Source of the DNA: Promethearchaeota archaeon
GTDB lineage: Archaea > Asgardarchaeota > Lokiarchaeia > Sigynarchaeales > SOKP01
DNA length: 58,210 nucleotides
Direction of reading: 5' to 3'
Assembly (NCBI GenBank): GCA_019058515.1
Contig: JAHPYY010000212.1
Location: 1-58,210 of the forward strand
The translations under genes and the position numbers were made by a program. The notes under the pieces are model-generated. The model saw nothing but the letters and a program-made list of their open reading frames with translations, did not search any database and had not been told where the DNA came from. Every line of letters begins with the position of its first letter. Position 1 is the stretch's first letter. Shown one piece after another: positions 7,768 to 32,955 of the stretch.

Positions 7768-8174
7768 GAAATGAGGAAAAAATTATAAATTATTGAATTA
7801 TGGCTGGAGTATGTAAATTTTTATCTTATTTAAGATTTATATCTGAAATTCGTTAAATAGAAGCCATTGCAAGTCTTAGATGCACATAATATTTAGTTGA
7901 AAGATTTTATTCTTTAAAAAGTGAAAATTATTTCTTTAAATAGTGTTCGTTTATTTCCACCTTATATTCCGAAATCTAATTAGAATCTATATAGATCAAT
8001 GGTAAAAATTACAAATTATCCACTTTTTCTATATAAAGGATAAATTTCCAATCAATTATTTGAGCAAAAATATAAATAACTCATCTTATATGGTTCATAT
8101 AAGTTTCTTTTTAAAAATCACTTAGTTTAATAGTAAACTTCTGAATGAAATAGTGACAAAAGGAATGGAAGCAT
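7768..8174. other. Intergenic, no feature seen
   Basis: AT-rich DNA between the winged-helix pseudogene and the homing-endonuclease remnant. I find no coding frame of useful length and no clear repeat or fold. Confidence 0.4.
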
Positions 8175-9124
8175 TTGGTTAAATTTCGCAAGATATTAAG
8201 ATTAAATACTAAGATAGGTGAACGGACTAAGGAAATTGATGGAAAGAAGTACGATTTGGTTTATATAATCTTTACATGTAAACCCATGTACAAAGATCTG
8301 GTTAATCTTGGATCAAAAGTGTTAAAAGAGGGATCTAGAGTTTCCTTTAATTGAGAAATGACGATTTATCTTATTCCTTTTTACTTGGATTTTATGATGG
8401 TGAAGGGCACGAGGGAACCACACGGATATATTCTACAAACTTCAACCTCTTATATCAAATTAAAAACACATATACATTGAATTCGGAAGTAAGAGAGGTT
8501 CCTGCTGAAGATATTCCAGATGATCTTAAAAAGTATCCTATAGACAGAACCAAACCTATGTATGATTTAGCACTAGGAGCAGAACTACTTAATAAAATGA
8601 TGGATAGTTATCTAGATAGTTTAACAAGAAAACGCAAAATCTTTAGCGAGCAACAAAATGCCATGGAAGTGTTGAAATATAAAGTTAAGGATAAATCAAA
8701 TTTAATAGAATTAATTGAAGAATACGGAAAGGAGAAAGTGACTAAAGAAATGGGTGTTGCTTTTCAAACATTAGATAAATTGTGCAAAGAATGGAATATT
8801 ACAGCGACAAAGTTAATTGGGCTTGAGAGATTAAAAAAATATGTGGATAAAGAGACATTGATTAAAATGATTGAAGATTTTGGCATAGATAATACTGCAA
8901 AAAAATTAAATGCGGGATCCAGAACTGTTAAATCTCTAATGAAAGATTGGGGGAATTAAAACATCTTATTTGTCTGCCAAAGATAGGTTAGCACGGGAAA
9001 TAGGAAGTGAAGAAAACTTAAAAAGACTATTAAAAAGTAGTTCTCTCACAAAATTGAGTGAAAATTTGGTGTAGGAAGAAATACAGTTAAACGATTGTGT
9101 GTTGATTGGGGTATATATTCATAA
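8175..9124 (+). pseudogene. Degraded LAGLIDADG-type homing endonuclease with three HTH repeats
   Basis: Four consecutive frame segments join into one protein-like sequence. The first runs from about 8175 (VKFRKILRL...) to 8350. The second, from 8351, begins LRNDDLSYSFLLGFYDGEG, in which LLGFYDGEG is a LAGLIDADG-like helix. Breaks lie near 8351, 8953 (a run of five G) and 9065. The C-terminal half has three tandem helix-turn-helix units with shared spacing: EYGKEKVTKEMGV...LCKEWNI, DFGIDNTAKKLNA...LMKDWG, and LTKLSENFGVGRNTVKRLCVDWGI. Such repeats occur as DNA-binding tails of homing endonucleases. The intact part alone (8351-8959) could encode about 200 residues. It lies 240 bp upstream of the aIF2-gamma gene. 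Confidence 0.6.
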
Positions 9125-9360
9125 ATTTATTCAAAAATTACTATTTTATATGTTATGATACTTGTATCTGATTTCAAAATTTCCTTCATAATTAAAAAAT
9201 TAGATTAGGATAAATAGGTTTTGTAGCTTTACACAAAAGTATAAAAGCAGATTATTCTCGTTAGAAGCTTTCATTCGAATTAATAAAAATATCTATTATT
9301 ATTATATCGTTTATATGATTTTTAATAAAAATTAATTATGAAAGAAAATAATAAACTAAT

Positions 9361-10934
9361 ATGGAATATCACTTAGAAGATGTTAGTGGTATTGGAAAAG
9401 CTACTGCTGAAAGAATGAAAGAGTCGGGTATAGATTCAGTTGAAAAACTTGCTTCTTTAAATACAAAAGATTTAATAAAATTGAAGATCAAAGGAATTGG
9501 AAAAGCTACTGCCGAAAAATATATTAATGGAGCAAAAATATTACTTAAAGATGTTAGGAAAGTAAAAAAGGAAGAACTCTTGGAAAAAAAAGAGCCACCA
9601 AAAAAAGAAAAACTTGAAAGTAATAGAATTCCTAAAGCAGTAACCAATATTAAGGAACTAGTTAAACAACAGGCAGAATGTAATATCGGTCTAGTCGGCC
9701 ATGTTGATCATGGAATGGATCAGTCATATCGGCTGTTCCCATAAAAACAACCTTAGTAAAAACTCTCACGGGAGACTGGACTGATAGACATTCTCAGGAG
9801 CAGGAAAGAGGAATTTCCATTAAATTAGGTTACTCAAATGCCACTATTCTCTACTGTCCTCAGTGCGACATCTATTTAACAAAACACATGGCAGAAAAGG
9901 AGAGGAAAAAAGGAGAACCTCGCTTTCTGTGTCCAAACTGTAAGGAAAAATTGGAATTCAGGCGAAATATTTCTTTCGTAGACGCTCCTGGACACGAAAT
10001 ATTAATGGCCACCATGCTAAGCGGAGCTTCTTTAATGGATGGAGCGTGTTTACTAATTGCAGCAGACGAAATCTGTCCTCAGCCTCAAACAAGAGAACAC
10101 CTTGCAGCTTTGAATATCGCCGGGATTGATAAAATTATCATTATTCAAAACAAAATTGATGCTGTTTCATACGAGCAAGCTCAGGAAAATTACAATCAGA
10201 TTAAGGAATTTATCAAGGACACTGTCGCAGAAAATGCTCCCATTATACCAGTTTCAGCTTTGTTTGGAGCAAATATTGGAATGATTGTGAGAGCGTTTGA
10301 GGAAATTATACCAACTCCAGAAATAGATATAGACGAGGAATTTCAGTTTTTAATAGCACGTTCTTTTGACATCAATAAACCCGGATATGATATTGAAGAT
10401 TTACGAGGAGGGGTTATCGGGGGCTCCGTTTTAAAGGGACATGTTAAAGTTGGAGAAATTATTGAAATTAAACCTGGTTTAAAAATTAAAGATAATTACG
10501 AACCAATTTCAACTGAGGTTGTAAGCATTAGTCAAGGAAATAATTTCCTAAGTAAAGCCTTACCAGGTGGATTAATAGGATTAGGAACCAATTTGGATCC
10601 TGCTTTAACAAGAGCCGATGCCTTAATAGGTCACTTGGGAGGTAAACCAAATAGTTTACCCGAGATATTATCTGAAGTAAAATTGAAAATTACACTTTTA
10701 GATCGAGTATTAGGTTCTGAAAACCAAATTAAAGTTCACGATCTTAAGCATAACGAAAGGTTATTGATGGTAGTAGGAGCAGAAAAAACGGCAGGATTAG
10801 TGACTAAAATTTTGAAAGATAGCTACATCATTAAATTGACGCCTCCTATATGCCCACCTGAAAATTTCGTATTTGCGATATCAAGGATTATAAACAGGAG
10901 ATATCGACTTATTGGTTACGGTGTAAGGGTATAA
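9361..10934 (+). CDS. Translation initiation factor aIF2 gamma with N-terminal HhH fusion; reading frame interrupted in P-loop
   Basis: aIF2-gamma is the GTPase subunit that brings initiator Met-tRNA to the ribosome. Residues about 1-62 are a RadA-like double helix-hairpin-helix (SGIGKATAERM, KGIGKATAEKY), unusual for this factor, followed by a charged linker. The GTPase begins at IGLVGHVDHG (ending at 9714). A 29-nt insertion at 9715-9743 shifts the frame into a stop (TAA 9742-9744). Exactly after it the gene resumes with KTTLVKTLTGDWTD, the RGIS switch I, two zinc pairs (CPQC, CPNC), DAPGHE, NKID, SALFG and both beta barrels to 10934. Without the insertion the product is 514 residues, and its GTPase part has the normal length of about 410. 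The intact remainder argues for a functional gene. Confidence 0.88.
9715..9743 (+). other. 29-nt P-loop insertion, candidate bulge-helix-bulge intron
   Basis: Removal of these 29 bases rejoins GGA to AAA-ACA-ACC and restores GHVDHGKTT. The borders are ambiguous by one A. A 4-bp helix can form between 9710-9713 (ATGG) and 9739-9742 (CCAT). The adjoining triplets 9714-9716 and 9743-9745 would be the bulges and contain both junctions. The insert side continues as 9717-9720 with 9735-9738 (two GU pairs), or 9718-9723 with 9733-9738 (one mismatch). An outer helix 9703-9706 with 9748-9751 is offset by an internal loop. This matches a relaxed (HBh'-like) substrate of the archaeal tRNA-splicing endonuclease rather than a canonical one. 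Assembly error or a true mutation remain possible. Confidence 0.45.
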
Positions 10935-31548: not shown

Positions 31549-32955
31549 TCATTTATACTCGGGAAATTGTACTATAAAGTTGGAACCTTTAGTATTATCC
31601 CCTTCAATTCTATCTTCCACCCAAATTTTGCCGTTAAATTAATCGATAATTTTTTTGACAACTGATAATCCAAAACCCAATCCTTTTTTCCCTTTTTTGT
31701 CCTTATTCCCCTCTTGAAAAATAACACGCTTCCTCTCGTCGTCAATCCCAATTCCGTTATCGATACACTCGATTCTGACTATGTCTACGTTCTCAATTCG
31801 AAGTTTCGAAATTTTTATGGTAATTTGAATGATGGGTTGATCGTTATATTTTACAGCGTTATTTAACAAATTTTCAAATGTATTACCGAGAAATTGGTCT
31901 CCGTTTATCCACAAATCATAGCTTTCACTTTCCAGTGAAATCTCAATCTCTCGTTCTTTAAAACCTCCTTTGATAAAACTAATGGCTTCGTTCATGCTTT
32001 TAAGCACATTAATTTTGTCTAGCGACGACTGATCTTCATTTTCTAACTTATATAGGTTCCGTACATTAGAAATTAGTAATCTTGCCTTAGCGAGGGATTC
32101 CTCTATTGTTTTGAACAAATCATCTGGGTCGGTATGCACATTAGATTGATTTTTAGATAACGAGTATATTTGGGAACAAGCGTCTATGGTCGTTAAAATG
32201 TTATACATGTCGTGAGAAAAGAGGCTTCTGTAGAATTCAGCCCGTTCGTGCGCCTTGCGATAATTTTGCTCCGATTGTTTTAATTTCTCTTCGGCCACCT
32301 TGCGATTGTGTATATCTTGTAAAATTACTTTAATGACCTTTTCTCTCTCAACTTCGAACAGCGTTGCTTATAATGTTTCCTCAAAGACTTGCGTGTAAGC
32401 TTTCTTTCTTTGAGGCGTTACCCATTTGATATTAAGAAATTCCTTACCAATTAAATCATCTTTATGTAATCCAGCGTATCTTAAGAACAAAGGATTAGCA
32501 CCAATTACAACTCCTTTTGAATTCACTAGTAGTATCATATTAGGGGATGTCTCAAAAAGGTGCCGAAATTTCTCCTCCGATTCTTTTAACTTCAGTTCTG
32601 CTGCTTTACGTTCTGTGATGTCTCTTGAGATGATTAGTATTTTTGATTTTCCATCCTCCGACTTAAATATCTTTCCTTTGGATTCTATCCAGATGTAGTG
32701 CCCCTTTTTGTGCCCAAACCTTACCTCTGCGAAACCAGACCCGATTTTAAAGCTTTCCCTTAACTTTTCAGCCGCCATTTCTACATCATCTGGATGGATG
32801 TACATCAATGCAGATGTTCCAATTATTTCTTCTGGAGTATAACCTAATGTATGCATAAAGGAGTATTTATTGACATATTCGAACTGAAATTTCTCGCTTA
32901 TTACGCTGATTAGGTCGTAGACATTTTCGGAGATGAGCCGATATTTTTCTTTCAA
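31549..32955 (-). pseudogene. PAS-PAS histidine kinase with two in-frame TAA codons
   Basis: One reverse-strand frame from TTG 32953-32955 to TGA 31549-31551 encodes a complete sensor kinase of 468 codons. Stops occur only at 32368-32370 and 31639-31641, both TAA. The first PAS domain spans about 5-115 (VNKYSFMHTLGYTPEEIIG, ending DITERKA) and the second follows directly. Then come FSHDMYNILTTIDA (likely phospho-acceptor His), LLNNAVKYN (N box), DNGIGID (G1) and GLGFGLSVVKKIID (G2). Beyond the second stop the frame continues with FNGKIWVEDRIEGDNTKGSNF, the normal end of such kinases. No response regulator is adjacent. Confidence 0.8.

Follow-up and report, generated by a model that had tools for sequence, protein, structure and literature searches.

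A putative 29-nucleotide bulge-helix-bulge intron in the aIF2-gamma gene of a Lokiarchaeal contig and similar candidate mini-introns in conserved codons of other genes

The analyzed DNA, hereafter the window, comprises 58,210 nucleotides of contig JAHPYY010000212.1 (assembly GCA_019058515.1) and is Lokiarchaeal as judged from the closest relatives of its aIF2-gamma gene (72-80% identity, best 80 of 161 relatives). This gene lies on the forward strand. Its reading frame is open from position 9361 to the codons of the P-loop residues GHVDHG and open again from those of KTT (9744) to 10934. The 29 bases between the two motifs introduce an in-frame stop, as a preliminary description of the locus had claimed and as the reading frames bear out. 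Upstream of aIF2-gamma, on the same strand, there is a degenerate LAGLIDADG homing endonuclease gene (HEG; 8157..8959), which consists of two out-of-frame pieces (8157-8351 and 8351-8959) and lacks its N-terminal portion, including the first motif; weak remnants of it could be followed by eye to approximately position 9125.

Excision of exactly 29 bases, likewise proposed in the preliminary description, restores both the frame and the consensus. This holds for three placements, i.e. 9714-9742, 9715-9743 (the one originally given) and 9716-9744. Only the last carries a 4-bp bulge-helix-bulge (BHB) core and for this reason it was chosen as the position of the insert. The gene is thereby divided into exon 1 (9361..9715, +), the putative 29-nt BHB intron (9716..9744, +; 9715-9743 is an equivalent placement), assigned on the basis of its core and of homologues at the same site, and exon 2 (9745..10934, +). 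Exon 1 encodes an N-terminal helix-hairpin-helix extension (Pfam HHH_5, E=2.4e-12 over 9361-9714), continues to ...CNIGLVGHVDHG and ends with the first base of the Lys codon. Exon 2 supplies bases 2-3 of this codon, continues with TTLVK to the stop and matches Pfam GTP_EFTU and eIF2_C. The HHH_5 extension (9361-9600 in the window) is also present in the listed relatives that were inspected. With up to 3 mismatches allowed, the 29-mer was found once in the window, and in 0 of 100 shuffles.

In the predicted BHB fold, the 5′ strand of the central helix is the exonic AUGG (9710..9713, +), which belongs to the His-Gly codons CAT GGA, and the 3′ strand is the intronic CCAU (9739..9742, +). The two 3-nt bulges are AA^U (9714..9716, +) and AA^A (9743..9745, +), with predicted 5′ and 3′ cuts between 9715 and 9716 and between 9744 and 9745, respectively. 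The remainder of the intron forms an internal hairpin, or inner helix (9717..9738, +). Cutting after the second base of each bulge would remove 9716-9744 and leave GGA AAA ACA, encoding GKT. The preliminary description had proposed a relaxed BHB motif; the motif is indeed present, but its core in the window is the canonical 4 bp, and cores with 3 of 4 bp occur in some relatives (L008, L021 and L047). For the window segment, the energy of the BHB fold is -15.4 kcal/mol, i.e. 1.3 above the minimum-energy fold (-16.7 kcal/mol). The BHB is the best fold in 4 of 12 sequences (L008, L021, L050 and L057) and elsewhere up to 6.7 kcal/mol worse. Single sequences folded with modest z-scores, from -2.2 to 0.0. 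For the BHB to prevail, it would have to be favoured by co-transcriptional folding and by the enzyme.

Comparison with the aIF2-gamma genes of close relatives, a check suggested in the preliminary description, was carried out with one genome per species. Among the best 80 of 161 relatives, 79 loci span the P-loop (L053, in which it is not covered, was left out), and an insert at GHVDHG^KTT is present in 16 of them and absent from 63. The 53 closest Lokiarchaeal loci comprise 16 with an insert at the identical site and 37 without, and the 26 more distant aIF2-gamma loci contain none at the P-loop. The aIF2-gamma inserts are 29 or 30 nt long, alike at their ends (GGN-A...YATA-A or nearly so) and different in their middles. 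A covariance model built from them (R1) detects the insert of aIF2-gamma in 19 of the 83 class genomes. A scan of 227 genomes of the phylum, the class included, gave no full-length match outside the class at E<=1e-4; the filters were strict, and the model favours the P-loop of aIF2-gamma.

A second, intact aIF2-gamma gene, which the preliminary description had named as evidence against an intron, was sought in relatives of the window. The 19 intron genomes are metagenome bins whose completeness is not stated. No aIF2-gamma other than the interrupted one was found in 18 of them, the further hits being paralogues with 27-34% identity (E ~1e-12 to 1e-10). The remaining bin is G066, to which L009 belongs and in which a full intron-less aIF2-gamma and the start of an intron copy lie on different contigs (G066:C106 and G066:C165; L119 and L197). 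Because the intron copy abuts the end of its contig and shares 93.7% identity with the contig of L005, this bin likely mixes two organisms; its organism could conceivably carry both copies. As the 18 other genomes are single-copy and G066 looks mixed, the odds for an intron are unchanged by this case.

An error of sequencing or assembly, or decay of the gene into a pseudogene, would explain the broken frame, and the intron-less copy in the G066 bin would also be compatible with it. However, the identical site is occupied in 16 of the 53 close loci, which come from different studies and many separate assemblies, so the insert is due neither to chance nor to assembly error, and the artefact considered in the preliminary description is excluded by this recurrence. 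Against a pseudogene stand the failure to find another aIF2-gamma in 18 of the 19 intron genomes and the state of the exons, which are otherwise intact: the spliced product shows 99-100% length coverage and 69-74% identity in the best 120 of 7154 protein matches. We regard the probability of this explanation as negligible. No near-identical full-length protein occurs among these 120 matches (from a database clustered at 90%), and the matches listed therefore give no indirect sign that a spliced transcript exists.

The predicted fold is accompanied by covariation in 17 aIF2-gamma sequences, from which the inner helix was assigned. Both sides have changed at 7 of its 8 pairs, which corresponds to 7 of 12 pairs overall. 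Paired cells amount to 89.2% (77.8% after shuffling), and the covariation score is 0.362, compared with 0.153 for shuffled and 0.05-0.16 for slid alignments. The central helix varies little across these 17 sequences, and its compensation is seen in other genes: in P-loop introns of five genes (n=30), the His codon CAT is paired with A in 28 cases and CAC with G in 2, with no mismatch. Signs of constraint extend into the exons. The His codon is CAT in 17/17 intron genes and in 11/37 intron-less ones (Fisher p=5e-7), and the outer duplex between exon 1 and exon 2 has a median energy of -15.3 kcal/mol in intron genes versus -9.2 kcal/mol in intron-less genes (Mann-Whitney p=1.6e-5); both p-values are optimistic because the sequences are related. 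In the window (-4.5 kcal/mol) and in L057 (-4.2 kcal/mol) the outer helix of the exons is weak, and one intron-less gene, L010, has a strong one. In L042, which has a G in bulge 2, the P-loop Lys is restored by the BHB junction only.

The putative intron of the window is a member of a Lokiarchaeial family of mini-introns located in highly conserved codons. Together with those of aIF2-gamma, the inserts found number 55, at 15 sites in 7 gene families. Two of them measure 50 and 65 nt, respectively, and all others 29-33 nt. R1 also matches same-position P-loop inserts in other translational GTPases, and the same P-loop site is occupied in five GTPase genes. Censuses of the EF1A, aEF2, IF5B and rpoA1 families were conducted over the 83 genomes and the loci were then fetched. 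Gene names derive from family searches except in the case of the glycosidase, which we take to be GH38-like from its motif. The P-loop of aIF2-gamma accounts for 20 inserts. EF1A has 5 at the P-loop and one each at GH^IDHG, NLV^IIGH and PGHAD^FVKN; EF2 has 2 at the P-loop and 1 at DTPGH^VDLT; the EF2 paralogue has 1 at the P-loop, 3 at AH^IDHG, 9 at DSD^DEEQ and 2 at a neighbouring TD site; and IF5B has 2 at the P-loop. The remaining ones interrupt RNA polymerase A′ (1 at a DEDG site and 3 at GHFGH^IELARP) and the GH38-like glycosidase (3 at HWDRE^WYLPF). One EF2-paralogue gene, L140 (G048:C4), harbours two mini-introns, at AH^IDHG and DSD^DEEQ. L126 contains a 30-nt insert and a separate single in-frame TAA, and the quality of its sequence is doubtful owing to the latter; L186 reaches a contig end.

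For each insert, all motif-restoring junctions were listed and then checked for a 4-bp BHB core, the motifs having been picked by the analyst from intact relatives and paralogues. A 4-bp core is present at a protein-restoring junction in 49 of the 55 inserts, and one of 3 bp in the other 6. Where only a single junction is possible (19 inserts, 7 sites), the 4-bp core occurs in all 19. At 14 of the 15 sites at least one insert has a 4-bp core, and at the remaining site the core is 3 bp. Sliding the 3′ side by 1-6 bases retained the core in 0-3 of 50 inserts, versus 45 of 50 in register, and when introns were shuffled, for one insert from each of 14 groups, 0.6-19% of the trials produced a 4-bp core. 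The set of 50 used for sliding and shuffling omits L119, whose 84-nt site is identical to that of L005; the full set consists of these 50 together with L119, L185 and L190-L192. The core sequences vary by site (AUGG/CCAU, UCAG/CUGA, GGAC/GUUC, GCGC/GCGU, CGUG/CACG and others), so they do not represent one copied motif.

The junctions also bear on two other ways of reading the gap. In programmed translational bypassing, exemplified by gene 60 of phage T4, the ribosome would skip the 29 bases of an unspliced mRNA. Both the length of the gap and the hairpin within it fit such elements. Bypassing, however, requires matching take-off and landing triplets, and at codon-boundary junctions these are present in only 2 of the 55 inserts (L138 and L192), the window not being one of them; and neither the BHB core nor the cut positions nor the CAT/CAC-to-A/G compensation would be expected from it. 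We therefore consider it highly improbable. The second alternative is a remnant of a self-splicing (group I or II) intron or of an intein. The P-loop and other conserved motifs are favoured sites of inteins and group I introns, and LAGLIDADG genes go with such elements. Yet 29 nt is far below the size of a ribozyme or an intein, positions 9300-10200 of the window have no Rfam match at E<=1, and the BHB cores recur from site to site as described above. The chance that such a remnant is involved seems minute.

A BHB intron would depend on enzymes of tRNA splicing. Genes of the tRNA-splicing endonuclease family (PF01974) were identified in 82 of the 83 class genomes, mostly as two genes. RtcB was detected in 15 of 16 intron genomes among the relatives of the window (one match being partial); in the search of these 16 it was not found in G014. 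The enzyme types of archaeal splicing endonucleases are treated in PMC12397907, and passages of PMC2738675 tie the hetero-oligomeric form to unconventional motifs and cbf5 introns. The presence of two PF01974 genes in most genomes would fit a two-subunit endonuclease of this kind.

The short archaeal intron put forward in the preliminary description is thus supported by presence and absence at the same site in relatives, covariation, a BHB core at the frame-restoring junction, exonic constraint and the enzymes encoded by relatives. According to these lines of evidence, the 29 bases very probably constitute an archaeal BHB intron of the aIF2-gamma pre-mRNA. In the proposed sequence of events, exonic AUGG and intronic CCAU would pair in the folded transcript, the tRNA-splicing endonuclease would cut behind base 2 of each 3-nt bulge, and RtcB would ligate the exons; splicing would precede translation and yield an intact P-loop, GHVDHGKTT.

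The endonuclease gene in the window has homologues upstream of intron-bearing aIF2-gamma or EF1A genes. In L013 there is an intact HEG with both motifs, a 490-aa ORF ending 112 bp upstream of aIF2-gamma, to which the two window pieces show 58% (60 columns) and 49% (201 columns) identity. PF14528 (LAGLIDADG_3) was recognized in 9 of 14 alignment members, L013 not among them, and the L013 endonuclease alone received no Pfam name. Sequence searches of the PDB returned only weak LAGLIDADG matches (E 0.07 and 0.033). With an AlphaFold2 model of the L013 ORF (pLDDT 82, pTM 0.52), the top 21 Foldseek matches were homing endonucleases, I-DmoI included, LAGLIDADG maturases and one endonuclease-bearing intein; 6 of the matches have E<=0.001, and the TM-scores, at most 0.61 by target length, are moderate. 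The model points to a LAGLIDADG-like fold.

The occurrence of HEGs was compared at aIF2-gamma loci with 1.9 kb or more in front of the P-loop. A HEG or its remnant lies upstream of 5 of 14 intron-bearing genes versus 0 of 31 intron-less ones (Fisher 0.0016, again an optimistic value given the relatedness of the sequences); the other 9 intron-bearing loci have none. The HEG family is present in 40 of the 83 class genomes, and neighbours were inspected by eye at 30 loci. Eight of the 12 best-scoring HEG places adjoin an insert-bearing gene (G003, G007, G050, G063, G067, G058, G068 and G006), as do three lower-scoring ones (G002, G012 and G016); beside the other 4 of the 12 (L193-L196; G045, G048, G003:C96 and G019) no insert was seen by eye. 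The HEG neighbourhoods also revealed introns that had not been searched for, namely that at the rpoA1 DEDG site (L153) and those of the GH38-like gene (L151, L154 and L155). Two of the HEG relatives, in L193 (G045:C75) and L195 (G003:C96), are longer (912- and 562-aa frames, respectively) and are located near a ribosomal protein S6e-like gene, in which no insert is visible. In L151 (G067:C65), the end of GH38-like exon 1 (NNIIIVPETHWDRE / NHIIIVPETHWDRE) appears on both sides of the HEG, at ~1440-1490 and 2900-2990, as if part of exon 1 had been duplicated around the HEG insertion.

A small clade around L013 shows how intron and HEG may have travelled together. L019, a near relative, has neither, and positions 3920-5542 of L013 are unmatched in it, with ~116 other bases standing in their place. 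L005 and L119, which possess the intron and are HEG-less, keep the bases that flank the 3′ end of the L013 HEG, a probable deletion scar. The exon 1 sequences of L013 and L005 are more alike than those of L013 and L019; this is not so for exon 2. Co-conversion of HEG and intron followed by loss of the HEG would leave such a pattern, in this one clade. According to the model that we propose, a LAGLIDADG endonuclease encoded outside the intron, in a gene adjoining the host gene, would cut intron-less alleles, and repair would then copy the endonuclease gene together with the intron. The endonuclease gene would subsequently decay, which would be the state seen in the window, and later be lost, whereas the intron would persist because only its exact removal is tolerated.

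The principal alternative concerns the origin of the introns. They could be ancient BHB introns that were inherited vertically and lost many times, the adjoining HEGs being unrelated bystanders. The lack of a HEG at 9 of 14 intron loci would agree with such a history, and cbf5 introns behave in this way according to passages of PMC2738675. In a tree of 59 aIF2-gamma proteins (L051 contributed 44 aa only) the intron label is moreover somewhat clustered, an equally low number of changes being obtained in 6 of 500 shuffles. The same tree, however, calls for 11 changes at best, at least 8 of them forced by well-supported branches. It also has to be set against vertical inheritance that among aIF2-gamma loci HEGs lie beside intron alleles only, that two HEG-less intron alleles retain the putative scar, that an identical P-loop site is used in five GTPase genes, and that the rpoA1 and GH38 introns were located through HEG neighbourhoods. 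Inheritance of this kind appears possible but rather unlikely. Spread of the mini-introns by free-standing homing endonucleases is the probable course, although this is a weaker inference than splicing itself. The fuller reading is that Lokiarchaeia, a lineage close to eukaryotes, possess genome-spread, mobile ~30-nt BHB mini-introns of mRNAs in invariant codons, catalytic ones among them, of essential genes, moved between cells and paralogues by free-standing LAGLIDADG endonucleases, and that tRNA-splicing enzymes serve in routine mRNA maturation; on balance we favour it, with some reserve.

Several known systems resemble parts of this arrangement. The cbf5 pre-mRNA introns of Sulfolobales and Desulfurococcales (Crenarchaeota) are likewise short BHB introns of a protein gene; as described in passages of PMC2738675, they have a predicted cut between bulge residues 2 and 3, interrupt the codon of a catalytic residue and have been gained and lost. 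They differ in being restricted to one gene and one site in a different phylum, whereas the Lokiarchaeal inserts occupy 15 sites in 7 families and other motifs. We know of no endonuclease gene that accompanies cbf5 introns. In the 83 class genomes, cbf5 itself was matched in 80, a few matches being partial, and no listed match contains a stop. Small hairpin BHB introns (<50 nt) of Thermoproteales 16S rRNA are ORF-less and, according to parts of PMC4496867, hitch-hike on a nearby endonuclease, which brings about their co-conversion; that enzyme is encoded within an adjacent rRNA intron, unlike the free-standing Lokiarchaeal enzyme encoded outside the protein gene. Collaborative or trans homing in phages (mobE/nrdB) shares the endonuclease gene beside the intron, the conserved target and co-conversion, as outlined in sections of PMC2988022, but involves group I ribozyme introns and HNH/GIY-YIG enzymes in place of BHB introns and LAGLIDADG enzymes. 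The rRNA and phage systems serve as precedents for the proposed mobilization by an adjoining endonuclease gene. Archaeal tRNA introns have the same BHB motif and presumably the same processing enzymes; in contrast to these, the Lokiarchaeal introns reside in mRNA and coding exons supply the RNA context.

According to a 2016 review (PMC4810243), introns of archaeal pre-mRNAs occur in cbf5 of some Crenarchaeota and nowhere else, and introns in other archaeal protein genes are mentioned in PMC2738675 as predicted and unconfirmed. Text from the same source refers to cbf5 introns of 36 bp and to putative viral introns of 12 bp; it is plausible that the window insert is among the shortest archaeal mRNA introns, as the preliminary description had supposed. 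A 2024 paper on Asgard archaea (PMC11291895) reports many tRNA introns, and its passages on intron, BHB and splicing name none in protein genes. No earlier report of such introns in Lokiarchaeia was found in open-licence PMC papers. If the interpretation is true, essential genes of this Asgard lineage rely on mRNA splicing by tRNA-splicing enzymes. The intron genes would be split or truncated by gene callers, with effects on completeness scores of bins and on marker-gene trees. The endonuclease-beside-intron layout offers a testable origin for small spliced introns, and the findings bear on two wider questions, namely how introns might have invaded archaeal genomes close to the eukaryotic root and how mRNA splicing is reconciled with coupled translation.

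Some interrupted or apparently interrupted genes were rejected as intron carriers. The EF1A genes of L122-L125 are continuous, the reported TAA being the natural stop. EF2 of L144 (G073:C89) contains a single in-frame TAG instead of an insert; a single in-frame TAG was likewise indicated by the family search for EF2 of L111, L112 and L146, with inspection of L144. In the window, a gene resembling PAS-histidine-kinase genes (31639-32955, -) is split by one in-frame TAA with the frame otherwise open and has no BHB insertion, and was not considered an intron gene. As a separate observation, the rpoA1 genes of G009:C31, G018:C111 and G040:C88 each have a single long open frame (1496-2317 aa) in which the match to the model falls into two pieces, and the break, near model position 446-454, is intein-like.
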